Shown: one piece after another, positions 9,365 to 64,000 of the stretch
Layout: the number at the start of each line of letters is the position of its first letter
Numbering within the stretch: the stretch's first letter is position 1
Source of the DNA: Mixophyes australis
Taxonomy: Eukaryota > Chordata > Amphibia > Anura > Limnodynastidae
Length of the DNA: 64,000 nt
Direction of reading: 5' to 3'
Assembly: GCA_036250195.1 (NCBI GenBank)
Contig: JAVHZZ010000003.1
Span: 37,857,835-37,921,834 of the forward strand
Notes under the pieces: generated by a model
Told to the model about the DNA's origin: nothing
Databases searched by the model: none
Seen by the model: the letters and a program-made list of their open reading frames with translations, nothing else
Made by a program: the position numbers and the translations under genes

Positions 9365-10536
9365 ATCTATGTCTCTATTACGGCTTGGGAAAAGACACAC
9401 TGTGATACAACAGTATGACACTGCATCACACTTCTGTTATGCTGTAAGCAGGTTTGTGTTCCGACACAGGAACACCACAAGCTCAGGAGTATGTACGTAG
9501 CCGCTGCTGTAGCCCTCCCTCTCCTATCCTACCAGTGCTTTAAGGGCTCATCCTGAAAGATAAATAGGATACATTCCGTTTTATTACTAAAAGTACTGAA
9601 ACCCAGAAAAGAAGTTACTGTAGTGAAGTAAGAGCAGATCTTTATCCAAAGCAAACTCTGCAGCTCCTGTGGGGCCAAAGAACTAGTTTCAGAAAATCAT
9701 TATATCCTGTGCTTTGGCAGATTGGTAAACAAGCGATGTTTCTAAAGTGGACGTACGGCAATTCTAGGCGACCGTATGCGCATTGGTTCAGTGGGAACTC
9801 CTTATAAAACTGTGACTACAGTGTACAATAGTTGTATCTGGAGAACTGAAGAAAAGTGAATTCCCCTCTGAATGCGACCATTACCTGTCCAAAGCTTCCT
9901 GGTCCATCCGACTACACAGGGACCTAACTAAGGGTGCTGTTGTCTCTTTAATATGTGTGGCCCAGCGTACATATACACGTACCACAGCTCCTGATGCATC
10001 TTTAACCACAAATATTGTGTATTGCATAGCACACTACTCCAGGTTTGCCCATTATTACAGTACAATCCCTGTAGTGACAACTTATAGTATCAGTGCAAAA
10101 ACATTACCGTCTGACAATATCACTTCGCCCCAGGCAGCAACTGTTGTCTTTTACTTGTATACTTGGGTATAAATTGTCCGAACTTGTCAATAGTTTTGAA
10201 ATAACTTGAAATTAGTTTTAGCTGTTGCTTCTAGTACTTGTCTTGTGATTATGGATTGAACGCGGTGTTAGGTAGAAAGTGTTTTGTCAATTTTTACAGA
10301 GAGCCTGCAGATAATTGCAGACACGTGGGGTTTCTTTTGGATTTCTTAAGCAAGCCTGACCAAAATTCTGTGTTTCTGTCAAAACTTCTAAGTGGACTGT
10401 TCCATCCCAGATGTGGGGGGTAACCGAGATGTCTCATCTGTTTGTCTCAATTCAGGTTTTGTTTGGATCTAGTATTTAGGAATAGAACATGTATATGATG
10501 ATTAACTATTTATTTATTTAAACATTTTTCAAACAG
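9365..10536 (+). other. ATAD2B intron sequence, nothing recognised
   Basis: About 1.2 kb with only short random ORFs. It ends in the T-rich acceptor of the exon at 10537. Confidence 0.5.
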
Positions 10537-11172
10537 TTCCAGCCCGTCGGAAGCACCGTAGAGGCTCACAGTGGGGCAGGGGCATCATTAAGAAGAAGAA
10601 ATCCAGTTATTTAAAAAAAGAGGAGGAGGATTCTAAGTTCCAAGACTACGAAGACAACGACGATCCCTTGGAGAACGGAGACTGTCTTGAAGAGAATGGA
10701 GAGGAGACGGGAGACCCCTCGGTGACCAACGATGAGTCCTCTTGTGACATCATGGATGGAGATGTGGATCACACCAATAGCACACCTGTGAAAGGCAGCA
10801 GCTGTCTCTCCACGGAAGAGGAGAGCTCCAACGAGTCCACGCTTGTCAACAGCAATAAAGCTTTCAAAGAAATATCAGCGGCTGCCACGGATCCACCACT
10901 GGCTGCCGACTACGTCAACGGTAGCGCCTCAATGGAGAGCTTAGAACGAACACCGCTAGCTGCTCTCCATAATGGAAAGGAGGCCTCCAGTACTCTCACC
11001 ACCACGGATAAAGACTCTGGGGCAGGAGCCCACCACACTCATGAACTAGTTAACTGTCACAATGATGCAAGCGTGGATAGTATTGGAGGGCCACAGCAAT
11101 CGCAGGTAGCTGCTGAAAATAATGTTCCCGAGACAGTACAAGAGAGTGTGGACTTAGAGGATGTACAGGAAG
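10537..11172 (+). CDS. ATAD2B: ATAD2B exon: large acidic, disordered C-terminal region
   Basis: This 636-nt exon follows acceptor TTTTTCAAACAG and ends at GGAAG/GTAAGT. It begins with a basic, nuclear-localisation-like patch (PARRKHRRGSQWGRGIIKKK). A long acidic, Ser/Glu/Asp/Asn-rich stretch follows (EEEDSKFQDYEDND, NGEETGDPSVTNDESSCDIMD, STEEESSNES). These short blocks are the recognisable islands of ATAD2B in an otherwise fast-evolving region. Phase is 1 to 1 and the frame is open throughout. A translation starting at the internal ATG at 10668 would be only part of this exon, not a separate gene. A 23-nt C run begins about 11 nt after the donor. Confidence 0.92.
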
Positions 11173-35898: not shown

Positions 35899-36279
35899 TG
35901 CTCCTTCTATGTTGTGCAGAGATGTTAGTATTTGTGCACACATTATGGGGCTTGTGTAGAGCTTGATATGGGTGTCTTTTTCAGACAGGAAATATGGATT
36001 TTTGTACCGCACATGAACAAAAGATGCATAAGCGCAAGTTAGTATGTAGAGTCTGGCCCATCTTACTTTTAGGTTTAGAGAGGTATAAATATTCTGTGTA
36101 CCCAAAGTAGGTGTAATACAAGCACATCAGTCCAGTGAAACACGTGTTCTCACCACCTCATTAGACCGTGTCAATTCTTGGAATCCCCAGATGACCAGTT
36201 CTCAATCGAAGTAATATGTGGAATAAATAAAGGTATCAGAGATAGTGTAATACCTTATGATCAAAGTAACCCAGTGAAC

Positions 36280-38060
36280 AAACACCAAAAAGCTTCCCTC
36301 TTCCCTCCTCCCTTTGCACTGAATGTCGGGTGTGACGTCATCACGTCACGCCTGACAGTCAGTGAGGAGCAGCACAGAAAGGACCCAGCAAGAAGACAGA
36401 AGAAAAGAAAATAGATGAAAAAAGCCAATACCAAGTTAACTAAAGGAACGAGGGAAAGGGGAGGAAAGCAGAAAGGCAGAGTGTGAGAAGGAAGGGGGGA
36501 GCAGCATGGCACAGTGAGATGAAGAAGGGTGGGAGCAGCATGGCACAATGTGATGAAGAAAGGGGGAGCAGCATGGCACGGTGAGATGAAGAAGGGTGGG
36601 AGCAGGATGGCACAGTATGATGAAGAAGGGGGGAGCAGCATGGCACAGTGTGATGAAGGGGGGCAGCATGGCACAGTGTGATGAAGGGGGGCAGCATGGC
36701 ACAGTGAGATGAAGAAGGGTGGGAGCAGCATGGCACAGTGTGATGAAGGGGGGCAGCATGGCACAGTGAGATGAAGAAGGGTGGGAGCAGCATGGCACAG
36801 TGTGATGAAGGGGGGCAGCATGGCACAGTGAGATGAAGAAGGGTGGGAGCAGCATGGCACAGTGTGATGAAGGGGGGCAGCATGGCACAGTGAGATGATG
36901 AAGGGGGGAGCAGCATGGCACAGTGTGATGAAGAAGGGTGGGAGCAGCATGGCACAGTGAGATGAAGAAGGGTGGGAGCAGCATGGCACAGTGTGATGAA
37001 GAAGGGTGGGAGCAGCATGGCACAGTGTGATGAAGAAGGGTGGGAGCAGCATGGCACAGTGTGATGAAGGGGGGGGGCAGCATGGCACAGTGTGATGAAG
37101 AAGGGTGGGAGCAGCATGGCACAGTGTGATGAAGGGGGGGGGGCAGCATGGCACAGTGTGATGAAGGGGGGAGCAGCATGGCACAGTGAGATGAAGGGGG
37201 GGGCAGCATGGCACAGTGTGATGAAGGGGGGAGCAGCATGGCACAGTGTGATGAAGAAAAGGGGAGCATGGCACAGTGTGATGAAGAAAAGGGTAGCAGC
37301 ATGGCACAGTGAGATGAAGAAGGGTGGGAGCAGGATGGCACAGTATGATGAAGAAGGGGGAGCAGCATGGCACAGTGTGATGAAGGGGGGGGCAGCATGG
37401 CACAGTGTGATGAAGGGGGGGGGCAGCATGGCACAGTGTGATGAAGGGGGGAGCAGCATGGCACAGTGAGATGAAGGGGGGGGCAGCATGGCACAGTGTG
37501 ATGAAGGGGGGAGCAGCATGGCACAGTGTGATGAAGGGGGGGGGCAGCATGGCACAGTGTGATGAAGGGGGGGCAGCATGGTACAGTGTGATGAAGGGGG
37601 GCAGCATGGCACAGTGAGATGAAGAAGGGTGGGAGCAGGATGGCACAGTGTGATGAAGAAGGGGGAGCAGCATGGCACAGTGTGATGAAGGGGGGGGGCA
37701 ACATGGCACAGTGTGATGAAGGGGGGGGCAGCATGGCACAGTGTGATGAAGGGGGGGGGGCAGCATGGCACAGTGTGATGAAGAAGAAGGGGGACAACAT
37801 GGCACAGTGTCATAAAGAAGAAGGGGGAGCCACATGGCACAGTGTGATGAAGGGGGGGCAGCATGGCACAGTGAGATGAAGAAGGAGGGCAGCATGCCAC
37901 AGTGTGATGAATGGGGCCAGGTGAAGGGGGGAAAAGCAGCATGGGGGGCATATGGTGGCACAGGGGGCTTGTGGCAATGAGGTCTCTTTATTAAATGTGA
38001 AAATGAATTATTTAATGGCAATGATGGTTGCGGGAAATAGGTATATTTATGAAATGTAAA
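36280..38060 (+). mobile_element. Non-autonomous repeat with expanded tandem array (copy A)
   Basis: Order of parts: a pyrimidine-rich strip (CCCTCTTCCCTCCTCC), an imperfect palindrome around TGACGTCATCACGTCA (about 36325-36362), a purine-rich leader, a large tandem array, then TTTATTAAATG...GCTGGGGCTG sequence. The same order is found at 38.9-40.1 and 56.2-57.7 kb. No coding capacity. The termini of this copy are not clear. Confidence 0.6.
36483..37915 (+). repeat. 1.4-kb tandem array, units of about 28-36 bp
   Basis: About 45 copies built on GCAGCATGGCACAGTG plus TGATGAAG, with variable G runs and an optional GAAGGGTGGGA block. Higher-order groups of units repeat. All three minus-strand frames, and parts of the plus strand, stay open because the unit has no stop in them. 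The ORFs of up to 586 codons are therefore by-products of the array, not genes. Confidence 0.95.
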
Positions 38061-38880
38061 TAATATTTATTGCTGGGGCTGTTTTGAGGTCAGATTTCTA
38101 TTACACCACTGGTCCCAGGATATCATCCTTTACAATGTTACGGCTTCCTAGTAACTGTCATAAGCTTTTAGAAGTAGCAGGAGAGGTCTTCACCTATAGC
38201 TGCCGCCTTCCTGCACAGTTGGATGCATTGACAGGTGCTTGGATGCCCTCAGGACTTAACTCAATGTAGTGAAAGCTTTTGAGTAGGAATCAGTAGCACA
38301 GAGATAGGAGAAATGGGGCAAAGAACCCACCCCCCACATCCACTCAAGAAGCAACAATAATTTAATTACAACCGTGCGCCCCGGCTGCCTGTCACTAGCC
38401 AGGATGCAGCGGCTGTATGAGGCGTCAAGGTTGCCCTGGCCTACACAACCAAAATCAGTCTTTAACCATTAAAAAACATGCAGTACAATGCTTATCTCAC
38501 TGCTGTATCCAGTGGAGGAGGGTTCAAAGGGCTACATATAGTCTCTTCATAGTACTTCACAATCACTGTGGAGGAAACTGTTGAAGTGGGGATAAAAAAA
38601 GTCATAAATGGCCAAGCTACCCATCCCACCACTCCACATGCCTTCAAACCTAACTAAATGCCCCTTACATCCACACCAGCTGCTTTTGTCCCCATTCTTC
38701 TGTCTCCCCTGTATCACACTGTGCCCTCCATTATGTTGCTCTTCCTCCCCTTCACTTGTCTCTCCTATTTAACAATGTGCCCTCCATGCTGCTTTTGCTC
38801 CCCTTTCTGTCTCCCCTGGTTCACATTCCCTTCTCTTACCTTTCTGTTGCTTTATTTCTTATGGATTCTTCTCTTCTTCT
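38061..38880. other. Intergenic, nothing recognised
   Basis: Pyrimidine-rich towards the right end (38640-38900), which leads into copy B of the array-bearing family. Confidence 0.4.
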
Positions 38881-42434: not shown

Positions 42435-42950
42435 CGGTGACTATTGGTTTATTTGAACTATCTCTTTTACATATTTCTTACATGTCACTAGAGATGCTCA
42501 CTGCTCCCCGTGTTTTGGTTTTGGTTCCGGATCTGGATTAACTTTGTGTTTTGGTTTTGGTTTTAGTTTTGGCCAAACTGCTCTTGCGTGTTTTGGTTTT
42601 GGTTCTGTTTTTTTTTAAAAAAAAAAAAATGCTAAAATATGCTAAAATCACATCATTTTGCTCTTTTTTTGTTCCTACATTATTATTAACCTCAATAACA
42701 CTAATTTCCAGTCATTTCCAGTCAATTTTGACCACCTCACAGGTCACAATATTATTTTCATACACTTTCAGACAAAGACTACAGCAAGCACAAACACACG
42801 GCAGTTCACAGGAGATCTAGGAAAACATTGCCACACAGCAGTGGCAGAAACAAAAAAAACAAAAAAAAAAGTGGTGCCACCTTTGTGGCTGAAGTGCTTG
42901 GTTTGTTCAGGCCCCCACAAAACAAGCTACCAATAGATTAGCTGCCTTAA

Positions 42951-43345
42951 GCCCAACAGAGGCAGGATGATACATATGTCCAGTTTAAAGAACAGCTAAG
43001 AGACCTCAGAAAACAAATGGGTGTGTCACCGGACCCTGCAAACGAAGATTTGGAAGATGAAGACGAGGAGATCGCCATCATCTTGAGCACAAGGCCGGTA
43101 CAGTGAGACTGCGAATGGCTCATTAAATCAGTTATGGTTCCTTTGATCGCTCCACCCGTTACTTGGATGACTGTGGTAATTCTACAGCTAATACATGGTG
43201 ACAAGCGCTGACCCCCCGGGATGCGTGCATTTATCAGACGGAGATCAATCCGGGGTGCCCCGGCGGGTTGGAGATGGTGAACCCAGTGAAAAAGAAAGTA
43301 TGTGGTCACACGTACGAGAGAGAAGCAATTGAAAACAAACTTCAT
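42951..43345 (+). pseudogene. NSMCE2: Chimeric retrocopy: NSMCE2-like coding fragments flanking an 18S rRNA block
   Basis: NSMCE2 (MMS21) is the SUMO E3 ligase of the SMC5/6 complex. Codons from 42954 read QRQDDTYVQFKEQLRDLRKQ and continue MGVSPDPANEDLEDEDEEIA to IILST. From 43271 the text resumes as EMVNPVKKKVCGHTYEREAI. KVCGHTY is the start of the SP-RING (zf-Nse) motif, and both blocks are in the order and spacing expected of NSMCE2, except that roughly ten residues between them are replaced by 18S rRNA sequence. No introns are seen inside either block. It stops before most zinc ligands, so it cannot make an active ligase. The whole lies inside the left end of the hAT element. Confidence 0.7.
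43093..43270 (+). rRNA. 18S rRNA fragment (5' domain), embedded and non-functional
   Basis: GGCCGGTACAGTGAGACTGC, then GAATGGCTCATTAAATCAGT, TATGGTTCC, TACTTGGATGACTGTGGTAA, GCTAATACATGG and GATGCGTGCATTTATCAGAC follow one another exactly as in the 5' domain of vertebrate 18S rRNA (roughly nt 65-240 by recollection). Substitutions relative to the conserved sequence (GTGAGACT for GTGAAACT, TACAGC for TAGAGC) show it is an old copy. It begins and ends within NSMCE2-like sequence. It is a fragment, not an rDNA unit. Confidence 0.88.
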
Positions 43346-43384
43346 CCTACCACCATATTAATTCAACTCCGCAGGAAACCACCA

Positions 43385-45850
43385 TTACAAAAGTCTCTGT
43401 AACATAAATGTCAAAAACAAAAATGTAAAAAAAAATGCTTTTGCTGTTTTGTTTTGTTTTTAAAAAACACATCTAAAAATAAAGGTGAAAACTTGCTGTT
43501 GAAAAACATAAAATTGGCAACATGTCATTGTCATCATCCTCACCCTCATCAGTGTGTACATCATCACTCAATAGTAATTAATCCCGGCTGGAATCCACTA
43601 TTACAGAAGTCTCTGTACTTTGATCTAAATGCCAGTAAAGGCCTTACTCGTGGAATTTGTAGTTAATTTTACGACAGAGATGTCACGATTTTTGGGCAAT
43701 TCTTTCAGACCAGACCAACTGTCAAAATGTTCTACTGAATCATCTGCATCATCCTTGGGTCTCTTAGAAAAGCTTAGTTTTTCCTAGCAGCAGGAGCTGG
43801 AGAAACGGAAGTAGGGGACGCCGTCGTGTCAGGTACCACTTGAGCTGTCAAGTTGATCACCAGAAGCTCATTGCATTACTTATGATCCTGGACAGTGGGA
43901 AATAATGAGAAGACATAGCTCTTAAACCTAGGATCAAGCATAGTCGCCAAAATGTAGTGATAAGATTTCCAGAAGTTGATAACTTTGATCCTGGTGAAGC
44001 AATTAAAGTACTTCATCTACAAGAGACATACTTAGTGTAATTTCTTTGTTTTATCTACTCCTTCAATTTTTCAAGGTGCTTTTCCAAAAGTCTAATCAAG
44101 AGAATCACTTTGCTCAAGCTATCAGTTCACAGGTGACTACTTCGAATCATTTCAGCACCTTGCACAACACAGAAAGTATTGGACTAAAATACATTTCCCC
44201 TCCTTTCCCAATGTCATAGCTTGTGGAGTAAGCGTGGATGGCTTTCGCTGTTCCTACTTTCTCACAAGCATATAAAGTGTACAATTCTACCTTGTTACCA
44301 CCTCTTGCTTCAGTTGGTGGCAGGGCAAAATAAATTCTTCTTGCAGCTGCTGCAATTTCCTACATGCTGTTGCAGAATGCTGAAAATGTCCCAAAATTTT
44401 AGGGCCACAGACAGCATCTCCTGCACGTCCCTGCAATTTTTCAAAAAGCTCTGTACCACCATAATATGTGTGAACAAAACAGGGAATATGATGGATTTCA
44501 CCCAGCTGTAATGCTCTCACAATATTGGTGGCGTTATCATAAATTACATATCCTCAGAAGATTCCAAACGGGATAAGCCATGTTGCAATGACATCCCTTA
44601 GTTTTTCAAACAGGTTGTCATTGATATGCCTCTTAGTGAAGCCGCCGATACACAGAGTAGCCTGCCTCTGAATAATCTGGCGTTGTTGGGTACATGCTGC
44701 TGCTGTTCCTGCTGCTGAAGGCAATTCACCAACCCAGTGGGCTGTCACAGTCATATAATCTTTAGTTTGCCCAGTTCCGCTTGTCCCCATATCTGTGGTT
44801 AAGTGTACAGTGGGTAGAATGGCATTTTGTAGCTCAATAATTATGTTTTATGGAACCTTCTGGTAGAGGTGAGGAATAGCTTTTCTAGTAAAATGGGGCC
44901 ATGATAGAATTTTATAACAGGGGCACGGGACCTCAATTTACTGTCTAAAACCAACTGCATTAATTGTGGATATTGGATGCAGATCTAATACTAGCATAGT
45001 ATCACGGTAGCTAAGTGGTTAGCACTTCTGCCTCACAATGCTGGGGTCATGAGTTCAATTCCCAACCACGGCTTTATCTGTGTAGAATTTGTATGTTCTC
45101 CCCGTGTTTGTGTGGGTTTCCTCCAGGTGCTCTGGTTTCCTCTCACACTCATAAAACATACTAGTAGGTTAATTGGCTGCTATCAAATTGTATAGTGTGT
45201 GTTTTTGTTAGGGGAATTTAGACTGTAAGCTCCAATGGGGCAGGGACTGATGTGAGTGAGTTCTCTGTACAGCGCTGCGTAATTAGTTGCGCTATATAAA
45301 TAAATGGTGATGATAATGATGATAGTCGCCATGGAGTCAGTGATCCGCTTTGCGACTGGGTGACAGCTTTCATACTTGCTTTCTCTTGCAAAGGATTGTT
45401 TAACAGTCAATTGTTGTAAAATACTAGTAGTCTTCTTCTTGGCCTACTTCTGGGATGAAGCAGTACCAGGAATAACACTCAAGAATTCTTCAGAGTAATC
45501 CTGGATAAGGGAGAAGTCACCTAGCCTAAGCAACTTGGATGCAGCACTAACTCCGATCACTAGTTAGGATATTGATGAGTAAGGTGTTGTCGGTGTGGCT
45601 TTACAAAAGCTACAAATGGCTAGACAACTGTTGTCAGGATTGGGTAAAAATAATTGCACACATAAGAGGTGGATTTTTTGGTCTTATGCCCAGGCATGAC
45701 AATGACCTTCTTCTCATCACTGGCAAGAACACTGCTTTCACTGGTGCAGGACTTACACGAATTTCAATATCCTCATCAACATCCTCATTAGCGCCATCAT
45801 CAGCTACACAAATATCCCCTTTATCCTGTTGCAAATACAAAGTGGTATCC
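43385..45850 (-). pseudogene. hAT transposase remnant, left arm
   Basis: Minus-strand text runs from an acidic N-terminal part (ADDGANEDVDEDIEIRVSPA, near 45800) through KQSFARESKYESCHPVAKRI (near 45370) and the catalytic-domain blocks TTDMGTSGTGQTKDYMTVTA (44790-44730) and DNATNIVRALQLGEIHHIPC (44540-44480). The hAT hallmark MLDPRFK lies near 43930. Stops and frameshifts break it, a SINE sits in it at 44999-45325, and no C-terminal dimerisation motif was found. It pairs by sequence with the plus-strand arm to the right. Confidence 0.8.
44999..45325 (+). mobile_element. tRNA-derived SINE with L2-like tail (copy 2), inside the hAT transposase
   Basis: Same structure as the copy at 7466-7782: A-box-like TAAGTGGTTAGCAC, B-box-like GAGTTCAATTCC, central GTTCTCCCCGTGTTTGTGTG, tail GCGCTATATAAATAAATGGT and (GAT)n. 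It splits the minus-strand transposase between ...RITDSMA and LVLDLHPIST. ATAGT flanks both sides as a short target duplication. Confidence 0.85.
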
Positions 45851-46080
45851 TACATTTGTGTATCACTGACACTAAGAGGCATTCCGATGACAACCTTTTT
45901 GAAAACGAAGGGATGTCATTGCAACGTGGCTTATCCTGCTTGAACTCTCATAAGGATATGTAATTTCTGATAACGCCACCAATATTGTTAGAGCATTACA
46001 GCAGGGAGAATTCCATCGAGTAGGTTGTGTGTTGGAGAGCTCCTGCAGACCCAGAATAGTACATTCATTTTATCCAGCAA

Positions 46081-49000
46081 GGATGGAGGATCCTGGGGGA
46101 GGCGAGGAGGAAAGCCCCCAGGTTTCCAGGCCTACTCCACCTGCAGAAAGTGTGATCTCTGGGGTAAATTTTTCCCTTCTGCAGCCTCAAAACGTCTTAG
46201 CCAGCATGGTTGATGAACCCTCTAGCATGGAAAGCCGCAGTCAAGTTTCCAGCCTTATATTGCTGATGCCCCCCCCTCCCCCCCAAGCAATATCACGGGG
46301 GAGATCTCAGGGCCTCTGGCTATGACCTTGGGTGAAGAATGCTCCCCCTGCATGGACATGAATTCAGGGGAGGATGTATCTGAGGACCCATCCCATGTAC
46401 AGGCCCTAGTGAGGCAACTAGGTGCCGGCATTGAACTCCCACCTGTGAAATTAAACATGGTGGGGAAAGCGAATGAAGCCAATATGGTCCCAGTGACTAT
46501 GCAACTGGGGACTGCGATAGATCCGTCTGTGCCACTTAACATGTCGGACTCCTCTCCGAGTGTGCAAGTAAGCAAGTCCCGGGGTCTACACAACCGAGGA
46601 CCGTGGGAGGCCCGTCTGTGCAGTCTAACAAGTCGGACTCCCCAGCATCCGTGGTACCGCCTGATGAGACCCGTGAAATTACAACTGGTGCGGGCGATCC
46701 GGAGTTACCGCAAGCAGAAATCCGGGACAGCCTGTCAGTGGATCACGCCGTGTCCCGAGAAGAGAAACCTCTTGTTGTTGATGTGGATCATGGTAGTATT
46801 GACTTACCTAATACGGAGGGGGAGGTCGGAGAGCCAATTACCAGGGAACTTCATGAGGGGCTGATCGCTGATATAACAAGGTTGAAAAGACAAATATCTG
46901 CACTGAAAAAAAAAAAAAAATCGGGCTTTTAGCAGGGAACGAGTAGTTATGTGTTTGGAGATAGAGGAACTTTTGGCTAATTTGTTACTGAAAGAACAAA
47001 ATCTGCAACGCCTGACTGAGCAACTACAACACATGGAGTCCTGTAATGTGGATGCCTCGGCCGATGATCAATCATGTTTACCTGCTAACCCGGTGATGGG
47101 TACTCCTGTTGATGCGGGGGTAGACTCCCTGTATGATAAAATCAGGAGGCAGGAGGGGGAGCCGCCCGTGAAGGAACCCGTGGGGGCTGTAGCTGATGCT
47201 GGGTTGGTTGTTGCATCGGCCGTAGTTACTGCGGCTCGTTCAGCCGTCTTACCTCTGGCGTCACTTCCGGTCACGGCTGGCAGTCCTGATCTGGGTATCC
47301 CGAGGCTGAGGGTGGATACAGTAGCATCAGGCTCCTCTCTCCAGGAGGTAGGTATGAATGAGATGTTTAATGTAATGCCAGTGAGATCGGTTGTTGAAGG
47401 CGAGATCTCTGATGCCATATCTGTTGTTGATATTGTCTCCACTAAGGTCAAAACAGGCACTGATATGTTGTCCCTGCTACTACAGCATTAGAGGTTGGTG
47501 CAGGGATTAATAGCGGTGGATTATCTACTCCTGTCTTTGCTAGCAATAGCTCCCCTTTCCCTGATGCTGAGGTGCTCGCTGATGTGAGCAGCACGACTAT
47601 ATGTACAGCTAGGCCCATTGAGTCCAGTAAGGATTCTATATCCGTAGGCCGGATCGCCCCTATTAGCAACTGTATTGGAATACCTTTGAGCCCGGGAAAA
47701 TCAAAAATTATTAATACTATATACGGGCCCCTCCAGGTGACAGAGAGGGCTAAAAAAGCTGCTGTTCTAATCGACCAAGTGACCAGGGAAAATGCTGAGA
47801 GGTTCCAGGGGGGTCTGGGGGATCAAAATAAGCCCAGTATTAGCGCTAGAGGGGAGTTGGTGGGTCCAATTTCACCCGCCGTGGTAAGGCATAACCCTGA
47901 TGTCAGGACTGGGCCCTGGCCGGTCACCCATGTTTGCCCCTCAATTAATCTGGTGCCCCCGGTGTACCATTAGGTCCAGTTCCGGGGCCAATTTCTTATG
48001 CCCGGGTGTTATTGGGTGCACAAAGACCTGTGGCGTCTCCTTCCGGTGGCCCTCTTCCTAGGGGTCCTCAGTCTGGGGGCCCATCTCTCTCAGGCCAACC
48101 CCCCAAGAGAAGGAATGTTGTACAGCTAAGGTACATGGGGAAAGAACCCCCAAATAGAGGTGATTTTCTGAAGGTTTTTTTTTTCCTCCTTTGGTTTCGT
48201 CCCAGCGGATCTTTTTACCTGCATGCATCCCGTCGGGACCCCCGAGTATGATGGCAGCTTTATGACATATCAGGGGCTGCAGGCGTTCTGGGGCCGATGG
48301 GGTGGATGTAGGGGACAGGATCCGTGGGCAAAATTTAAAGCTATTGCTGTCACCAGACAGGAAAGGGTCAAGATTACCATTCTGGTTAGAAACGAGTCTA
48401 TCCCCGTAGCTGACTTAGCCTTTTGGGTGGGGCGGTACGCGTGCCTGGTGTCCCTACTTGTGAAGGTGCCTGATCCAAGCCATGGTGTCTGGGGTGGTGG
48501 GTGGTCCGCCATGGTAGACCTGCGGTGCACAGAGGCTGGCCTGGTCCATATCCCAAGTGCTGCCTTCCTGGGGAGGGACAGGATTCAGTGCTTTTATCCG
48601 GGTCAGCCGAGGATGTGCAACCGCTGTGGTGACTTCCGCCACCTCAGCACCAATTGCCAGCATCAAAAGTGTGGGCACTGTGGGGATACCGGGCACGAAA
48701 CCCGTTCCTGTAGCAGTATTAGATGTAACTTGTGTGGGACAATTGGCCATCCCTTCAGTAGATGCCCCCATGCATTCCATAACACAGAAATAGCTGATGA
48801 GCTGTTGGTACAGGCCGCTGAGGGGATAGAAGAGGCGCAGAGGGGTGAGGGTGTGGTGAAACCTGTTGATCCAGTCTCCACTGAGCAGCTGAAGTCTATG
48901 CCAATCCCCCCCCCTCCACTTTCCGACAGGGGCCGAGTGTTGAGCAGCCTGGTCCTAGTACCAAAACTTCATCCATAGGCAAGGAATGGGTGGAGCCAAA

Positions 49001-49286
49001 AAAGAGTATTAGGCAAAACAAATTAAGAAGGGTAAAAAACCTGGTTTTGTCTAATAAGTTCCAATTCTTGTCTAGTGAGGGGGAGGAATCAGAGGAGGGG
49101 GAGGTTGTAAGAACAAACGAGGGGGATCTAGTTCTTAGACAAAGTACTAGCAGCAAGAGAAGGAAGCATTCCGGCCCTGTCCTAGGTGATATAGCAGCCT
49201 ATAAGAAGCCCAAAGATAAATCGAAGTCCCCGAGGGCCTTTCTTAAATCATTTCCCCCAAGTGTCCTCCCTCTGTGGAAGAATTAG
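46081..49286 (+). pseudogene. Tx1-like LINE ORF1 (gag-like nucleic-acid binding protein), frameshifted
   Basis: Binds the LINE RNA in the RNP. Reading is carried over several frames: an N-terminal acidic/Pro-rich part from ATG 46081 (MEDPGGGEEESP), a coiled-coil-like stretch (LEIEELLANLLLKEQNLQRL, 46952-47011), a globular RNA-binding-like domain at about 48130-48570 and three zinc knuckles of the form C-x2-C-x4-H-x4-C at 48615-48770 (CNRCGDFRHLSTNC, CGHCGDTGHETRSC, CNLCGTIGHPFSRC). A charged tail with ESEEGEVV ends at the TAG near 49286. An A run at 46907-46920 is one likely frameshift site. Confidence 0.75.
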
Positions 49287-49828
49287 CCCCAGCTCCTATT
49301 TCCGACCTTGACCCTGATCCGGCCCCCCTTCCTGTTTCTCCTGCCCCTACGTCTGCTCTGATCCCTTCTGGGTCGGCTCGGGAGGTATCTTCCTTGGTTG
49401 CCGGTTCAGGTTCCGTCCCTGCCTCTCCGTCTTGTTTGGTCCTTTCCCACAGCCCAACTTCTATTCCTGTCCCTCCTCTTCTTCCTTCTCCTCCCAACCC
49501 TGTTCATCCCGTCCCCCTCCTTGTAGCTCCTGTGAGTCAGGTGTCAGTGTTGTCGGGAGTCTTGCTCGCTAATATTCCTTCTAGTACCCCAACTTTGGTG
49601 GCTAAATTGTAAGTCGTGGTGGCCAGTGTTGGGTCTGGTGGGGCCCCCCTTCTGGTGAAGAGGTTATTCTTCAGGAGGCCTTGCCAGCGGGCCTAAGTTG
49701 CAAGAGGTATGGGTCCTCGGATGAGGACTCTGCCAAACAGGTAAAAAAGAAGTGAGCTGATTCCTACTTTATAGCTCTGAAGGATGGCTTCCCAGCCCAT
49801 TAGATTTGCCACCATTAATGTGGCATCT

Positions 49829-49978
49829 AAAGATTGTAAGCTTGCGAGCAGGGTTCTCTTACCTCTCTGTCTGTATGTATTACCCAATATTGTCTTATCA
49901 GTGTTTGTTCCCAATTGTAAAGCGCTACGGAATTTGTTGGCGCTATATAAATAAATGTTGATGATGATGTTGATGATG
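49829..49978 (+). mobile_element. L2-like LINE 3' tail inserted in the Tx1-like ORF2
   Basis: AAAGATTGTAAGCTTGCGAG, then ...GTAAAGCGCTACGGAATTTG, then GCGCTATATAAATAAATG and (GAT)n. It is related to the 3' UTR of the L2-like copy at 35.7-35.9 kb. ATCT is duplicated on both sides (49825-49828 and 49979-49982). Removing it restores the endonuclease start, so this is a clean insertion. Confidence 0.8.
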
Positions 49979-52898
49979 ATCTATACGTTCCGAGCGAGCT
50001 CGTTATATGGCCTTTGATTTTTTCAGCACGGTTGAGGCTGATTTTTTATTTTTGCAGGAGACCAGATTGAGTCAGCTGGCTGACCTTCATAAAGCCAAAA
50101 GGGAGTGGAGACGTGGGCCCTCCTACTGGTCTCTTGCGGCCGAGCCGTACGGTGCGGTGGCGGTGCTTTTTACTGGCATGATAGCCATCCAGCGAGTTAT
50201 AGAACTAGAGGTAGGTAGGTGCATGATCTTGGATGTCAATCTGAGAGGGCACGACCTGAGGTTGATTAATGTTTATGGCCCCCAATCCAAGTGGGAAAGG
50301 AAGTGCTTTTTTGGTGCGATAAACCGTACCTTTTTTTCAGCCTGACAGATAGTCTTTGGTGGTGACTTTAACACTGTCATTAGGACTAAAGACAGGGGAG
50401 GTTCAAGGACTTCTCTGGGCTATGACTCCCATTTTTTAGCTAGCATAATTAGGCAGGCTGGTCTGGTGGATGTGCATATTCGCCATTTTCCGAACCACAC
50501 GGGGTTCACCTACGTTAGAGGCAGCTGTAGGTCTAGGATAGATAGGTTTTTTGTTAAGGAGAGCTCAAAAACCTTGGCTCCTGAGCTGAGGCCTGTAGAG
50601 TTCTCCGATAACGTTTACCTCTCTGCGTCTTTGAATGCTTCGGAGACTCTTCGGAAGGGTAGGGGCCTCTGGCGTCTGAACTCTAAGCTCCTGGAGGAGG
50701 AGGTGATTAGACAGTCCTTTAGGGACTTCTTTGAATCCCAGGAAACACTTTTGGAGGCGGGTTGGAGTAGGTCTGAATGGTGGGAGATGCTTAAAAAAAG
50801 GACCCGGGTTTTTTTCCGTGGACTGGTAGCCCGAAATAACTTGTTAAAAGAGAGTACCTACCTAGCACTGAGAAGGAAACAAGGATTCTTGATCTCTGGC
50901 CAGGGAAATGGTGGGGAAATCTCCCGAGTGAAGGCTCAGATGAGAGAGATACAATATGACCTGTATGCTTCCTTGATTCTGGAGAGGGACTATGGGAAGT
51001 ACCATTCGCCCGACCCCTTCCAGAGCTGTAGGAACTCGGTAGATGTTAAGGAGGTAAGGGGCTTACGCGATGCTGGGGGTGTGCTCAGGGAGGATAAGGA
51101 GGGCATCCTTGGTGTCGTGCGGTCCTTCTACTTTGATCTCTTGTCAAAGAAGTCACTTGACAGAGAAAAGATGGACCAGTTCCTGAGGGAAACCCCTGGC
51201 CTTGGAGACCTAAGTGGCTCGTTCGAATCCTTGGGCAGTAAGGTAATGGTGGACAAGGTCAGGATGGCGATAGATGGTTTATCTATCAAGAAAGCCCCGG
51301 GCCCGGATGGTCTGACATCTGAGTTTTTTTTAAAACCTTTGGGGACATCCTGGCCCCGTACCTTGCGGAGGTCTTTTAATGAGAGCTTGGGTAGAGGTTT
51401 ATTGCTTCCCTCCATGAGGGTTTCCGCCCTTATTTTGTTGTCCAAGGGGAAGGATCAATCGTGTGTTGAGAACTGGCGCCCCATCGCTCTTCTCAATACC
51501 GATAGGAAGATTTTGGCAAAGGTACTTTTAATAGACTGATGCAGGTCTCCGGCCAGTTGCTTTCTCCCTCTCATCATTGCACTGTGAAGGGTCGAAGCAC
51601 CTTTAGTGCTGTCCTGGGGGTGCCGGAGGCCATTGAGCGGTGTCGTGCTGAGAAGTGGGGGAAGTACCTATTAGCATTAGACCAGTCAAAGGCCTTTGAC
51701 AGGGTAAACCATGAGTACCTTTGGGCTCTGCTTCTGTGGTATGGTCTTCCAGTCCAGGTGGTGAATTGGCTTCGTACTATTTACAAGCAGGCAGAGAGCT
51801 TACCTCTTGTGAATGGTTGGGTGGGTCCGTCCTTTGGGGTCAGCTCTGGAGTAAGGCAGGGATTCCCCCTGAGCCCCCTCCTGTATGTGTTTGCAATAGA
51901 TCCCTTCATTCGAAGGATTGAAGGCGGCTCGATAGGAGGGGTTACTGTTGGGTCCGGAGTGTCCTCTGAAGGTCGTGGCCTACGCTGAGGATGTTACTGT
52001 TGTCTTGTCGAGTCCCGCGGAAGCAATAGAGGTTGCAATTCTGGTCTGCGGGTATTCCGAGGCCAGTGGCTCATTGGTAAACCAGGAAAAGAGTGAAGTT
52101 TTCTGGATGGGGGAGGAGGGTTGTGAATTCAGCCTTCCAGACAGTCTCCCCCGGGCTAGTAACAAGATCAAGATCTTAGGAATTCAATTCGGCCCTGGTG
52201 ATTATGCCAAGCAAAACTGGGAACTTAGGCTGGAGGAAGCTTCCCGGAAGGTAGAGAGCTGGAAGAGGTGGAAACACTCTCTCAGGGAAAGGGTGGACCT
52301 TGTCAAGACCTTTCTGATCCCGGTTTTCTTGTATATCAGCTATGTGTGCCTTTTGCCGGAGTCTTTATGGTCTAGGGTTTATGCAGTTTTCTTCCAGTTA
52401 CTCTGGGGAAATAGGCTGAACCTGGTCAGGCGGGCTGTGACCTATCGGCCGAGGAGGGATGGTGGCCTGGGCATGATTAACCCAGTGCTTTTCTTCATCA
52501 CAACCTTTTTAAAGTTGCACCTGAGCAGTCTCCTAGTTGAGACCCCTCCTCAGTGGGTGGATGGCTTCAGGGTTTGGGTGGATCCCTTCCTTAGTGCATG
52601 ATATGGGGGGGGGGGGGGCATGGTGAAAAGCTTCCGGGTCCGGCATGGGTATCCCCCGGCCTACGTTTCCTTGGGATTGAAGGTGACAAGGTCTTGGGGC
52701 CTGGGGGCGGGGGAAGTCAGGAGCTCTTCTAGAAGGGAGCTGGAGAAGAGAGTCCTGCACTCCCATTTCTGGGTCCCGCTGTCACTGAGGGACTGCCTGG
52801 GTGATGTGAGTTCGGCAGGGCTTTCTCTGATCAATTCAGGAAGAATCCCGTTGGAGCTTTGGGATATTGCCTGGCTCTCCTTTCAAGGGAGACTCTAT

Positions 52899-53130
52899 GG
52901 GGGGTATTCAATTGTTAGCGTTAACGAAAAAAAACGAGCGCTCAAAAATTCTTAGCATTAATACAGTAATTACTCGCGGAATTTCAGCTCGCTGCTCCCT
53001 GAGCGGCGAGCTGAAATTCCGCAAGTAAATTACCGTATTAACGCTTTTCGCGCGCAATATTACTGTATAAACTGTAATATTTTTTGAGTGCTCGTTTTTT
53101 TTCGTTAACGCTAACAATTGAATACCCCCC
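52899..53130. mobile_element. 232-bp palindromic MITE inserted in the Tx1-like ORF2
   Basis: Inverted ends GGGGGGTATTCAATTGTTAG, continuing CGTTAACGAAAAAAAACGAG, match almost perfectly over about 47 bp. A second inner inverted repeat (GCGGAATTTCAGCTCG / CGAGCTGAAATTCCGC) surrounds the centre. TAT is duplicated on both sides (52896-52898 and 53131-53133). The LINE frame joins smoothly across the site once one TAT is removed. The 3-bp duplication and G-rich tip suggest a PIF/Harbinger-like origin, but this is not settled. Confidence 0.9.
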
Positions 53131-54949
53131 TATGTGAGAGGGAACCTCAAGTACAGAAATGCTGATGATCGTGGCTGGCCACGGGAGGAATGTCTAGGGG
53201 TGGAGGAGACTATGGACCATTTCTTGCTTCAGTGTCTCTTTAACGTAGAGGTTTATAAAAGAGTCTCCGGATCCTTGGGGATCCCCTGCCTTTCGGGGCT
53301 TAGTTACCCTGAATGGGTCTACGGAGCATTCAAGGCCAGGTGGAGGGTTTTTGATTTCTGTACCCTTTTTTTAGTTAGTTTAGGGGTTAGATATTTCTCG
53401 TGGAATGCACGGTGTCAGGTGTCCATCAGACATAAAATCCTTCCTTGTGAAGTGGTGGTGGGTGACATTCTCCACGAGGTGTGGAAGTTGAGGGATATGG
53501 AGGGACGTTGGATTAACAATGCCAACTGGCTCAGACTCTGGCGGGGTCTGAGGCATCCGTAGGGAGGTCAAAGGCCGGCGCTTTCTTCTTTCTAAATGGC
53601 TTTTCTTCCTATTCTTTCACCCTCTAGATTTTGGTGGTTAAATGTTTTTTCAAGTATGGCTTAGCATGCACCTACAGCTTGCTTCTTTGCGGTGGGTAGT
53701 GTGTTTGTGAATTTGTATTTGGATATGTTATGGTTTAGTGGTGGCACCCTTTTCTATTTTATGCGGGTTTTATTTTTTTATATATATGTATTTATAGTCC
53801 TATTTATATTGCCGGAATCTGTCTGAGCTTGGATAACAGATTTCCAGTGCCTTACTTTGTGGTTTGTGATTTTATAAAAAAGTGGTGCCACCTTTTTGTA
53901 ATATTACTGTATGCTTATGTTGCAAGACTTAATAAAAATATCTCCATCACAATCCCTATTTTGCTCACACAATCAACTTGGTGGTACCGAGCTTTTTAAA
54001 AAATAACAGTGACATGCAGGACATGCTGTCTCTGTCCAGAAATAATTTGGGTAATTTTCGGCATTCTGCAACAGCATGTAGGAGATTGCAGCTGCTGCAA
54101 GAATAATCGAATTTGAGGGGGGAATGTACTTTAGTCCAGCGCTGTGGATAATACTTTCCACGTTGTGCAAGGTGTTGAAACCACTCTAAGTAGTCATCTG
54201 GAAAGTGAGTTCAGATACTGTTAGCTTGAGTCAAGTGATTCCCCTAATTAGACTTTTTGAAAAGCAGCTAGAGAAATTGAAGGAGGGGATGAAACTAAGC
54301 AATTTCGCTAACTATGTAGGACTTGTAGATCAAGTACTTTATTCGTTTCACCAGGATCCGAGAGTTATCAACATTTTGGCAACTGTGCATGATTCTAGGT
54401 TAAGAGCTATGTCTTCTCTTTCTTTCCAGCTGACCCAAATCTCAAGAGATGCAATAAACTCCTGGTGAGCAAGCTGACAGGTCAAGTTGTACATGACATG
54501 ACGACTCATCCTCCTTCAGTCTCTTTGGCAACTGCTGCTAGGAAAAAACTTAGCTTTCCCAAGATACCCAGTGGTGATGCAGAAGATTCAGCACAAAATT
54601 TTGACATTTGGTCTGGTGTAAAAGAATTGCCAAAAAATCATGACAGCTCCGTCGTAAAATTAACTACAAATTCCACGGGGAAGGCCATTACCGGCAATTA
54701 CATCAAAGTACAGAGACTTCTGTAATGGTGGATTCCAGCGGGGATGAAATAGTATTGTGTGAGGATGACGTACACGCTGATGAGAGTGAGGATGATGACA
54801 GTGTAGATTGTAGGTGCTGGGATCTAGCTGAGAGAAGGAAGCTAGCTGATGCTGATATGCTTGTTAATATTTTGGGCAGAATGGCATGTTGGCAATTTTA
54901 TGTTTTTTGACAGTAAACTTTCACCTTCATTAGAGAGGTGTTTTTGTTT

Positions 54950-55640
54950 CTTTAAAAGGTACAAGAATTTTATTATATCTTTGTTTCCCTGACTTAAAAC
55001 CACTGTGCACTTGAACATAGGCTTTAGCACATGACATAGAGGGATTACTATCATCATGACTGAAGACTGGAGAGTGACAAGAACACTGACACCCCTCCTG
55101 TTTCTGTATGAGCAATGGCACAGAGCAATGGGACTGGAGAGTGAAAAGGAAGCTGACACCCATCCTGTTTCTGGGTGAGCTATGGCACAGTAGAATGTCA
55201 CTGGAGACTTGTAAAAACACTGCCAGCCCTATTATTACAATTTTGCTTTCAGCACTGAACACTGCCACCTCTCCTGTTTCTGGGTGAGCTAGGGCAAAGT
55301 AGAATGTCACTGGAGACTTTTTAAAACACTGCCCACCCTATTATTACAATTGTGCTTTCAGTACTGAACATTGCCACCTCTTCTGTTTTTGGGTGAGCGA
55401 TGGCACAGTAGAATGTTACTGGAGACTTTTAAAAACATTGCCAGCCCTATTATTACAATTTGTCTTTCAGCACTGAAAACTGCCACCTCTCCTGTTTCTG
55501 GATGAGCTACGGCACAGTACAATGTCACTGGAGACTGCCAAGAGCACTGCCACCCCTCCTCTTTCTCGTTCATTAATGATGCTGTCCAACTGCGCTGGAG
55601 ACTGCCAACAACCCTGCTACCCCTTCTGTGTTTCTCTGTG
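54950..55640 (+). repeat. Subterminal tandem repeats of the hAT right end, about 120 bp
   Basis: About five units with the pattern CTCCTGTTTCTGGGTGAGCT, ATGGCACAGTAGAATGTCAC, TGGAGACTTTTAAAAACACTG, CCCTATTATTACAAT. Individual units start near 55098, 55155, 55262, 55378 and 55490. A parallel block with a different unit text is seen in the shorter family member at 59160-59640. Confidence 0.8.
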
Positions 55641-55802
55641 AAATGGTGCTGGATCTCCGTGGAGGGCGGTTCTTATAGAACCCAAAACTCAAGATCCGAC
55701 GACGCAACAACGACGTTTTACCTAGTTTTCACTTCCGAGGGGGCACGAAACATCTCTACACGTCACTAATAGAACATAAAAATATAATTTATATACATTC
55801 CT

Positions 55803-56580: not shown

Positions 56581-56884
56581 ACATATGTGTGATGAATGGA
56601 CAAGCTAGGGCTGTCTATTCAGATTACTTTTCATTTCCATTTGGACCAATAATAGAAAGAAGATGGCCATTGCTTTTAACAAGTACATAATGGGTTTATG
56701 GTGTTTTTTGTTCCGAAATCTAACACCTGGATACCTCCAAACTAGAAGTCCTGTGTTTGCCTTTGGGCAGCAGCGGAGTCTGGACTGCATTCTGCATCAA
56801 TCATCGCTGGAAAGGAAATTTTGCCTAGGGCACTGAGAAACCTTGCACCAGCCTAGAGGGGCATAGCCACATAGTTGAATAAGG

Positions 56885-57370
56885 GTGGCAGCAGACTGTG
56901 ATTAAGGGGTCAGACTGTACTACAGTGGGGACAGTGTGCTCTGCAATAGGGGGTAGTGTGCTCTGCGGTGGGTGGCAGTGTGTGCTGCAAGGGGCAGAGT
57001 GTGCTGCAAGGGGGATGGTCTGCTCTGCAGTGGGGGGCAGTGTGTGCTGCAGTCGGGGGCAGTGTGTGCTGCAAGGGGCAGAGTGTGCTGCAAGGGGGAT
57101 GGTGTGCTCTGCAGTGGGGGGCAGTATGTGTTGCAGGGGGATAGTGTGTCCTGAAGGGGGACAGCAGACTGGGCTCTCAGGGGGAAAGTATGAGGGGGAC
57201 TGAGTGTGGTGCAAGGGGGATAGTGTACTGAGGGGCAGAGTGTGATGGAGGGGGGCAGAGTTTGATAGAGGGCACAGTGTACTGAGGGGCAGAGTGAGAT
57301 AAAGGGCACAGTGTACTGAGGGGCAGAGTGAGATAAAGGGCACAGTGTACTGAGGTGGCTGTGTGATAAG
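56885..57370 (+). repeat. Tandem array, unit about 25-30 bp (GCAGTGTGTGCTGCAAGGGG)
   Basis: About sixteen units with two larger duplicated blocks (56985-57040 and 57065-57125). Later units read CACAGTGTACTGAGGGGCAG. Open frames on both strands are by-products of the repeat. Confidence 0.85.
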
Positions 57371-57812
57371 GGGTGCAGTGATTTGATGGCTTGGTGGAAG
57401 AGGGTTATGAATTGGCAACTGGGTGTTGAGAGATTTATTTATACATCCTTTTCACTAATGTTATAAATTGGCAAGTGGAAGGTATGTGGGAGGATGAATT
57501 GGCTGTGGGGTAAGTGATGAATTAACCTGGGAAGTGGGTGATGAAATTACCTGGGGCATCATGAATTGGCCACTGGGGTGTGATGAAATAGCTGTGGGGG
57601 GGGGGGGGGGAATGATCTCTGTATTGTTTGGCGTTCATGTGGATAAAGCTAAGTGACAACAAAGTTACAAGCAAGAACAGCAAGAACAGGTAAGCAAATC
57701 TGTCTAAATTTATTTGCTTGATAATAATCCTGAATTTTTCTTTAATGATTTGAGGGAGGGGGGCACTACGGGTGTATTAGCCTAGGGCTAACCCTTAATC
57801 GGGTCCTGCCTG

Positions 57813-58790: not shown

Positions 58791-59838
58791 TAGAGATGTT
58801 CACTGACCCCCGTGTTCTGGTTTTGGTTTTGGATCTGGATTAACTTTTTGTTTTGGTTTTGGCAAAACCGCCCTTGTGTGTTTTGGTTTTGATTTTGGTT
58901 TTGAATCCCAATTTTCTTTCTAAAATCTCTTTTTTTTTTGTTGTTGCTAAAATCACATATTTTTGCTTTTTTTTCCCCTCTACATTATTATTAACCTCAA
59001 TAACACTAATTTCAAGTCATTTGCAGTCAATTTTGACCATCTCACAGGTCACAATATTATTTTCATACACTTTCAAACAAAGACTGCAGCGAGCTGGCTG
59101 GATGCCAAACACATGGCAGTTCATAGCACATCTAGGAAACATGGCCACACAGCAGTGTCAGTAAAGAAAAGTGGTGCAATTAGCAATGGAGCTCTACATT
59201 TTGTGTTTTACCTGTATACCATAGTACAATGTGACTGCAGGTATACACCAAGCCTGCCAGACCTATTATTTGTATTTCAGCAATGACAATTAGCAATGGA
59301 GCTCTCCTCTTTGTGTTTTACTTATATAACACAGTACAATGTGACTGCAGATTTAGAAGACCAAGCCTGCCAGCCCTAGTATTTGTATTTCAGCAATGAC
59401 AATTAGCAATGGAGCTCTCCTCTTTGTGTTTTACTTACATAATACAGTACAATGTGACTGCAGGTTTAGAATACCAAGCCTGCCAGACCTATGATTTGTA
59501 TTTCAGCAATGACAATGAGCAATGGAGCTCTCCTCTTTGTGTGTTACCTATATAACACAGTACAATGTGACTGCAGATTTAGAAGACCAAACCTGCCAGA
59601 CCTATTATTTCTATTTCAGCAATGACAATTAGCAATGGAGCAATGGAGCTCTCCTGAATGTCACTGGAGACTTTGAAGAACACTGCTACCTCTTCCCTTT
59701 CTTTTCTACCTATGACGCTGCCCAACTGCACTAGAGACTGCCAAGAACTGTGCTACCCCTGCTGTGTCCCTCTTGGAAATTGCGCTGGATCGCAGTGAAG
59801 GGCGGTACTTATAGAATCCAAAACTCACAAGATCCGAG
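58791..59838. mobile_element. Short non-autonomous relative of the composite hAT
   Basis: Begins TAGAGATGTTCACTGACCCC and follows the left end of the 42489 element for about 370 bp (TTTTGGTTTTGG-rich, then GTCAATTTTGACCA). It then has four units of about 118 bp beginning GCAATGACAATTAGCAATGG, and closes with the GGGCGGTACTTATAGAATCC region seen at 55665. No transposase is present. The right terminal TAGAGATG could not be found, so that end is deleted or diverged. Confidence 0.75.
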
Positions 59839-62262: not shown

Positions 62263-62759
62263 ATTTGTAATTTCCATATAAAATGTAATTGAATACAAAC
62301 ATCTCCATATCTTGGTGTCAGATACCACAGGACACCTTCAGAGGTCTCGTGGAGTCCATGCCTCGATGGGTCAGAGCTGTTTTTTCCTTCACCAGTTAAC
62401 AGCACCTACCACCAACAGATTGATGTTTCATGTCAGATAGAGATGAATAAAGAACGGCAACTGGCTTTGTTGTTGCTTCTGGATAATTGCTGTAGAACAC
62501 CAGAACCACATGGTATCAATGGTTCTTTAAGTTAGGGGTGGACCTTTGTTTAAAAAGAGTCTCCTGGAGTAAAGTTGCATCAGCCTTGTCTATGTATAAT
62601 GCTTGTAAGAACTGAAATTTATTTTTGTATTGACTATAATCTAAGGAGGTCATGCATCTGGTGGCATTAGTAATTGTAAGAATTAAGTAGGTTGTGGCCT
62701 CTGTGACGTTAAGGCTGCATCTGTGAATTAGAAAAACCCAAATGGTCCATGAATTTGTT

Positions 62760-63302
62760 TAACACTGGGACAGAGAGAATGGGAGGAGAGAGGGTGGCAA
62801 AAGAGTAGAGAGGGTGGGAGAAGGGCAAGGGGCATGGGAGGGAAGGAGGAGGGCAGGGAGAATGGGAGAAGGACAGGGATTATGGGAGGAAAAGAGAAGG
62901 GCAGGGGAAATGGGAGGAAGAGAGAAGGGCAGGGAAACTGGGAGGAAGGGAGAAGGGCAGGGAGAATTGGAGGGAGGAAAAAGGGCAGGGAGAATGGGAG
63001 GGAGGGAGAAGGGCAGGGAGAATGGGAGGGAGGGAGAAGGGCAGGGAGAATGGGAGGGTGGGAGAAGGGCAGGGAGAATGGGAGGAGGGAGAAGGGCAGG
63101 GAGAATGGGAGGTAGGGAGGAGGGCAGGGAGAATGGGAGGGAGGTAGAAGGCAAGGGAGAATGGGAGGACAGGGAGAATGGGAGGGAGGGAGAAGGGCAG
63201 GGAGAATGGGAGGTAGGGAGGAGGGCAGGGAGAATGGGAGGACAGGAAGAACGGGAGGGAGGGAGAAGGACAGGGAGAATGGGAGGGAGGGAGAAATAGG
63301 GG
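62760..63302 (+). repeat. Polypurine minisatellite, unit about 28 bp
   Basis: About twenty units of GGGAGAAGGGCAGGGAGAAT plus GGGAGGGA. One strand is almost purely purine for more than 500 nt. Long open frames on both strands (for example 274 codons on the minus strand) follow from the unit lacking stops and are not genes. Confidence 0.95.
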
Positions 63303-64000
63303 GAGGTAATATTACATGATTTACGCTCCTGGAGAATATGAATGAGTCAACCAGATTCATTTTACATGTAATTACTTTCAGTGGAGTAAAGAGAGAGGGT
63401 GGCAGTAAATGCCATGAATTGAAACTACTGCAATACCCCCAGGCATAAATTGTTAACAGTAATGATAAAGGTAAGGTAACAGAAAATGAACAGTGAGTTA
63501 GTTTAAAGGTGCAGCCCATGACATGAGATAAACAGCTTATGACTAAAGTCATTCATGGCTGACTGTATGTAAGTATGTGTGTAAGTCAGACAGGTGGTTG
63601 TTTGTGATATCGAGCTACAAGTATCAGGACTCTCACACACTGCAATATATATGTGAAGGAAGGAAAGCAATATTCATGTCATTTTAAGTATTATGCTATT
63701 TCTCTGCATATGCTGAATTTGCTTCTTATTGAGTAGTTGTGTCCTGTATGTTACACCTTTAAGGTGGCTGAATTGCCATTCTGTACAAATATAGGAGGAG
63801 TAGCTAACATCAGATTAGACAGAGGGAGAGAAAGAAGAAGAAGAACCCAGGTTTTAGACTCTCACTCACTCTCAGGAATTTTTTTATTTCAAGAGTGTCC
63901 TTTTCTGGCTTTGTTATGTTCTTGGACCATTCTTTAGGCTGTGTGTTGTACCGCTACAGTTGTTTAACCCAGGGTCATATATAGTGACTCAGCTTTAGGA
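63303..64000. other. Intergenic, nothing recognised
   Basis: No supported feature to the end of the window. Confidence 0.45.

Follow-up and report, generated by a model that had tools for sequence, protein, structure and literature searches.

A hAT-type transposon of Mixophyes australis carrying intronless NSMCE2 sequence with an 18S ribosomal insert, a probable retrocopy patched after capture

The window, a 64,000-nucleotide stretch of the Mixophyes australis genome, contains a chimeric segment in which NSMCE2 coding sequence is interrupted by 18S rRNA sequence. We consider it very probable that this segment arose in four steps: an NSMCE2 retrocopy was inserted into a hAT element, received an 18S patch, was trimmed, and was amplified by hAT transposition.

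Both flanks of the chimera resemble NSMCE2. In a PDB protein search, the left flank (42963-43092) matched residues 124-161 of entry 9lwj_J, an E3 SUMO-protein ligase NSE2 that we take to be the human protein (E 3.9e-4; runner-up E 0.08), and the right flank (43271-43345) matched residues 175-195 of the same entry (E 1e-5) and contained a Pfam zf-Nse match above the family cut-off. The middle block matched the Rfam model SSU_rRNA_eukarya on the + strand (E 7.4e-12); its score of 47.8 bits is slightly short of the gathering score of 50 bits, which explains why the Rfam scan of the whole window returned no 18S entry. By PDB match and consensus alignment, positions 42959-43090 (+ strand) correspond to nt 342-473 of the NSMCE2 coding sequence (CDS), derived from reverse-transcribed mRNA. 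The 18S block, delimited by Rfam and genome rDNA, occupies 43088-43269 (+ strand), including 3-nt overlaps with NSMCE2 at either end (CAC, 43088-43090; GTT, 43267-43269). NSMCE2 resumes at 43267-43343 (+ strand) with CDS nt 501-590, the start of the SP-RING, of which 12 nt are deleted in the window copy. The stretch replaced by 18S is thus CDS 474-500 (27 nt). The initial annotation had described NSMCE2 on both sides of a co-oriented 18S block and the replacement of about ten residues, and the PDB and zf-Nse matches, the + strand Rfam match with the genome rDNA alignment, and the 27 missing nucleotides agree with it on each of these points. The microhomology that it suggested looking for at the two junctions was found as well, 3 nt at each (CAC and GTT).

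Further copies were sought in the genome of the window (3.13 Gb, 680 contigs), a check that the initial annotation had also named. A 491-nt query (42930-43420) was 86-100% identical in all 40 places scored among 4373 first-look candidates, the window included, and in 33 of the 40 the match spanned the full query (1-491). A whole-genome search for the 5' join, with a pattern of 26 nt and at most 3 mismatches allowed, found it at 465 places, while the reversed-pattern control gave 0. In every one of the 20 loci aligned, NSMCE2 blocks stood on both sides of the 18S. Divergence from the consensus was alike, at 3.8-5.8%, in the left part of the hAT, NSMCE2, the 18S block and the hAT stretch adjoining on the right, and was higher (8.6 and 14.1%) in hAT stretches further right. 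Because the chimera is present in many copies, with both flanks in all aligned loci and an 18S block that has decayed like its neighbours, an assembly join is a very unlikely explanation.

NSMCE2 uninterrupted at the patch point was found at no fewer than 124 places (control 0), and the uninterrupted exon 5/6 junction, a pattern that tests the 3' side only, at 373 places (control 10), both in whole-genome pattern searches, whose counts miss diverged or deleted copies. With the exon 5/6 pattern, an ordinary unpatched copy already takes up all 3 allowed mismatches; 373 is thus a low count, and unpatched elements may therefore be as numerous as patched ones. In the rows of this pattern (TTTAACACAGTTGG), a recurrent TTTAACACAG variant was seen ahead of the exon 6 sequence. 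A zf-Nse profile search yielded 150 scored matches among 1488 candidates, every one above the family cut-off, and many of them start at profile position 10-13. These starts and the TTTAACACAG variant perhaps mark further trimmed subfamilies. The 31 loci analysed below are a non-random set: 12 are the best zf-Nse matches, 10 were selected because their open frames are long, and 9 because of their join or profile range. In one more place, L056, the join was seen, and this locus otherwise stood outside the locus analyses.

The chimera sits within a DNA transposon of the hAT type, which is about 5.4 kb long and flanked by 8-bp target-site duplications (TSDs); the four longest elements measured 5168-5567 bp. 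Piecewise end-to-end alignment with loci L023 and L027 placed the whole window element (TAGAGATG...CATCTCTA) at 42489-55758 on the + strand, in the chimera's orientation and with two later insertions, a LINE and a SINE-like repeat. It is bordered by the left TSD CATGTCAC (42481-42488) and the right TSD CACGTCAC (55759-55766), which is identical to the left one at 7 of 8 positions. Along the + strand, the hAT left end (42489-42878) is followed by element sequence leading up to NSMCE2 (42879-42958), from which about 100 nt of the family consensus are absent. Beyond the chimera come a displaced hAT piece that abuts the NSMCE2 3' cut (43339-43401, with similar sequence at 43559-43617, 76%), the internal part of the hAT, with transposase remnants readable on the - strand (43402-46017, + strand), a LINE-like insertion (46018-53942, + strand) and the right part with the right end (53943-55758, + strand). 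The SINE-like repeat (45001-45321, + strand) appears as an alignment gap against L027 and has a relative at 7472-7782 (81%). The LINE-like insertion contains ORF2-like frames and a frame that encodes ZCCHC3-like RNA-binding domains (PF23058, E 3e-14); an endonuclease match was weak (E 0.003, below cut-off), and reverse transcriptase was recognised by eye only. Self-comparison of the window also revealed hAT-like sequence on either side of the chimera, with the displaced piece touching the NSMCE2 3' end, and a large inverted duplication inside the element (43526-44200 vs 54118-54803). A reverse-oriented match at 53943-54945, considered as a second hAT, proved to be the right half of the window element with its internal inverted duplication. 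Elsewhere in the window, at 58792-59179, there is a second, diverged hAT left end (~77%) that lacks NSMCE2 and continues into a 113-bp tandem array.

In 12 loci with extended flanks, family members start like TAGAGATGCTCACTG and, where the end was located, finish like GCATCTCTA. Terminal inverted repeats are present (TAGAGATGC...GCATCTCTA, with variants) and short, about 8-9 bp; no inverted 18-mer was found with up to 3 errors allowed. Eleven of the 12 loci fetched for the TSD test had a recognised left end, and among these the 8-bp TSD was exact (8/8) in L023, L025 and L027, matched at 7/8 positions in L022, L029 and L032, and was not found in five, counts that were made without a shuffle control. 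One decayed - strand frame matched the hAT-like RNase-H domain PF14372 at E 0.01, below cut-off, and four further element frames had no hAT match in the profile search. We assign the element to the hAT superfamily on the basis of its ends and TSDs, the transposase match being below cut-off. Host gene sequence is located between the transposon ends and is mobilised together with them, as in transduplications and Pack-TIRs.

The consensus of the 12 best zf-Nse loci contains the hAT left end, the whole NSMCE2 cDNA and then hAT sequence again. In this cDNA, a start codon about ten bases past the hAT opens a frame of 239 codons, followed by a stop, a 3'UTR, AATAAA and a poly(A) tail; the consensus protein aligned with PDB NSE2 over 235 residues without gaps (E 2.7e-72). 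The copies cover CDS 1-720 without introns. An intron-bearing NSMCE2 gene was found on the minus strand of C5, with exons CDS 401-501 and 502-608 bounded by AG/GT and introns before CDS 401, at 501/502 and after 608. It lies at most 0.2 Mb from WASHC5, which is on the opposite strand; the two genes are neighbours in human, too. Loci L075 and L081 (C5:18.603-18.607 Mb) are this gene, and the right join of 18S and NSMCE2 falls at its exon 5/6 boundary (our numbering). Across the two exons compared, 14 of 208 nt differ between the element consensus and the gene, which changes 4 amino acids. Since the NSMCE2 copies lack the gene's introns, they are mRNA-derived; with the poly(A) tail, a mark of LINE-type retrocopies, and an existing intron-bearing gene, this upholds the earlier proposal that the NSMCE2 part ultimately comes from reverse-transcribed mRNA. 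A TSD of the retrocopy itself was not found. When placed on a hAT stretch that lacks NSMCE2, its 5' and 3' junctions are separated by about 380 nt, and we infer that the retrocopy may have inserted with a target deletion, in which about 380 nt of hAT sequence would have been lost at the site. For annotation, these copies call for caution, as matches to NSMCE2 or 18S in a genome like this one may stem from the cargo of a transposon.

The elements coexist in three states: full cDNA without 18S, full or nearly full cDNA with 18S, and the trimmed type of the window. The last of these (CDS 342-473, 18S, CDS 501-590) was seen in all 20 aligned loci, which show minor losses of their own. Six copies with ACCCTGAGC at the join were fetched, and five of them (L055, L060, L061, L062 and L064) have 18S sequence, NSMCE2 sequence past CDS 590 and the 3'UTR. 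Clear intermediates are L055 (CDS 1-473, 18S, 505-720) and L060 (CDS 2-473, partial 18S, 501-720), while L061, L062 and L064 carry the 18S at CDS 473/501 with further NSMCE2 losses; no NSMCE2 was found downstream of the 18S in the sixth copy, L063. The 5' join of the cDNA was recognised in 19 of the 31 loci (poorly in L064), among them the patched L055, L060 and L061, and the 3' join, where hAT sequence follows the tail, in 21 of 31 (spuriously in L037), among them all five patched copies named above. Patched and unpatched copies thus share the cDNA/hAT junctions, and the 18S block is therefore a later patch. With a patch in an existing retrocopy, the apparent return to nearly the same place on NSMCE2 means only that a single break was repaired and that NSMCE2 lies to either side of it; a double switch of a LINE enzyme need not be invoked.

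The initial annotation had preferred another explanation, in which a LINE reverse transcriptase switched from NSMCE2 mRNA to 18S rRNA and back again, after which the chimeric cDNA was integrated. The NSMCE2 part is indeed RNA-derived, and excerpts of the literature put double template jumps on record (PMC2104539) and describe 28S/LINE-1 chimeras (PMC13174262). However, uninterrupted full-length NSMCE2 copies share the same hAT and the same outer junctions, so that the chimeric cDNA would have had to make a second landing at identical nucleotides. For the same reason, the blocks did not all integrate in one event, as they would in a tripartite LINE template-switch chimera. Moreover, no direct repeats around the chimera itself were better than those in shuffles. 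A switch before integration is thus exceedingly unlikely, and hAT transposition, to which the TSDs point, rather than LINE integration of the chimera accounts for the spread. A plain LINE retro-insertion of the chimera was likewise dropped, there being no repeat better than shuffles and no poly(A) at the chimera end.

We return to the four-step account. A polyadenylated, spliced NSMCE2 mRNA would have been reverse-transcribed, presumably by LINE machinery, and inserted into a hAT DNA transposon. A break in the NSMCE2 copy of one element would then have been closed by a 182-nt patch of 18S rRNA or rDNA with loss of 27 nt, as a class-2 templated insertion or by a microhomology-mediated template switch with the CAC and GTT joins. 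In one lineage, further internal deletions may have reduced NSMCE2 to nt 342-473 and 501-590, and hAT transposition with 8-bp TSDs would have amplified patched and unpatched elements alike. The window would then contain a single member of the trimmed, patched subfamily, into which the LINE and the SINE-like repeat were later inserted. Sequence comparison is the basis for the retrocopy nature, the amplification by hAT and the order of capture before patching; trimming after patching is the simplest order, and the enzyme of reverse transcription, the repair pathway and the template molecule of the patch are inferred. The sampled full-length patched copies share changes that are missing from the window type and are thus a sister lineage of it, not its direct ancestor. 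A tree of 44 copies was poorly resolved and near a star, and on it the 18S state needs 3 changes, not 1.

The family consensus of the 18S block was identical to genome rDNA in 176 of 183 columns (L067 and L070) or 175 of 183 (L066). Compared with this rDNA (GTAAGTACACACGGCC...GGCGGTGTTCCGGG), the microhomology is 3 nt at both joins, CAC and GTT. With 27 nt lost and no poly(A) or TSD, the patch has the features of a class 2 templated sequence insertion. Five of the seven differing columns (7/183) are common to both patched subfamilies; these five differences were absent from five genomic 18S fragments (L076-L080), which did not each reach every site. Either the donor was an 18S pseudogene outside the sample, or the patched lineage drifted ahead of amplification. 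One rDNA-like copy, L065 (C4:10002110-10002393), has a variable stretch about 38 nt shorter than that of L066-L070 (284 vs 322 nt).

Within the four-step account, the template of the patch may have been rDNA instead of 18S RNA, with copying by DNA-templated switching (gap filling, FoSTeS/MMBIR), a variant that we hold to be quite possible, if short of probable. The 3-nt microhomology of the two joins fits it, and the cited part of PMC8277862 explains most single-copy animal Pack-TIRs by gap filling, with a median microhomology of 2 bp. However, an RNA-derived patch would have the same sequence, because the block lies entirely within mature 18S. The right join at the exon 5/6 junction (CDS 501/502) would not be predicted from a random break. 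It would suit an aberrant NSMCE2-18S transcript, formed by RNA ligation or mis-splicing at exon 6 and followed by gene conversion of a hAT copy with its cDNA. The left join, however, lies inside exon 5, and the 3-nt GTT overlap accounts for the position of the right join without splicing; such a transcript is very unlikely, and the coincidence with the exon boundary is possibly due to chance, given the GTT overlap.

NSMCE2 is the SUMO ligase of the SMC5/6 complex, which acts on foreign and extrachromosomal DNA. We considered whether NSMCE2, before it was patched, had been retained by the hAT as functional cargo. The 239-codon consensus frame is open despite the divergence from the gene given above. 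The chance of this falls from 0.57 to 0.02 as divergence along the transposon branch increases from 1 to 7%, which makes the open frame mildly surprising, depending on branch length. Among the 31 loci, L045, L047 and L051 have one open frame over residues 1-239 and L042 has one over residues 1-238, in a sample where L045-L054 were selected for long frames. Changes present in at least four copies have an N/S ratio of 1.55 (17:11), nearly all of them at CpG sites. Against this, N/S was 4.0 for private changes and 2.46 for changes in 2-3 copies, compared with 2.5-3.1 expected without constraint; the patch breaks NSMCE2 at 465 places; and the cargo promoter is only putative. A working cargo gene before the patch is thus unlikely. 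Purifying selection on the present copies was dropped in view of the private changes, and these copies are most simply passengers; the window segment is most likely non-coding passenger sequence. It is distinctly improbable that a vertebrate hAT kept complete NSMCE2 as putatively expressed cargo that aided its multiplication, until patch and deletions made it a non-coding passenger that spread further.

The remainder of the window includes a bromodomain exon of ATAD2B at 400-567 on the + strand (PDB ATAD2B match, E 1.8e-27) and, at ~4259-4385 and 10536-11173 on the same strand, what we take by eye to be further ATAD2B exons. The hAT of the window lies in or downstream of ATAD2B. Long stop-free stretches at 36261-38066, 56825-57451 and 62728-63552 are repetitive and of low complexity.

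No vertebrate hAT with NSMCE2 or an 18S patch appeared among the literature matches listed, judged by title and the start of the abstract; the comparisons that follow rest on the cited portions of each paper. A fungal hAT with a captured histone H3 transcript occurs in hundreds of copies in Pseudocercospora and relatives (PMC6710886). Like the element described here, it combines an intronless host housekeeping cDNA with a hAT that has TIRs and TSDs (PMC6710886). It differs in its setting, namely fungi with RIP, where most H3-like copies are the third exon only, whereas here a vertebrate element carries a full-length CDS, 3'UTR, poly(A) and a secondary 18S patch (PMC6710886). Animal Pack-TIRs and Pack-hATs, including those of the western clawed frog, similarly have host sequence in a hAT and breakpoint microhomology, so that frog hAT captures with few copies were already known (PMC8277862). 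In the cited part of the animal survey, the 370 Pack-TIRs reported include only four multicopy cases, unlike the hundreds of places and the retro-copied donor seen here (PMC8277862). The 18S patch resembles class 2 templated sequence insertions in its origin from a distant locus, microdeletion, microhomology and lack of TSD and poly(A) (PMC5110952). Unlike in those insertions, the template is 18S, the words 'rRNA' and 'ribosomal' being absent from the main text of PMC5110952, and the patched site is a mobile element that has multiplied the scar. Tripartite chimeric retroelements also join three RNA-derived blocks, but theirs stem from three different transcripts, with direct repeats flanking the fungal and mouse cases cited, whereas the outer blocks here are one retrocopy to which the middle was added later (PMC2104539).

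Gene capture by hATs is known, and the full-length, high-copy, rRNA-patched vertebrate combination is an unusual variant rather than a new kind. Intermediates surviving in one genome show how a DNA transposon can gain a whole retro-copied gene, undergo repair with ribosomal sequence and multiply both gene and scar, and the hundreds of copies offer material for dating and comparing one templated-insertion scar. The element represents a vertebrate counterpart to the fungal hAT-histone H3 (PMC6710886), with a copy number well above that of the multicopy animal Pack-TIRs described in the cited part of the survey (PMC8277862).
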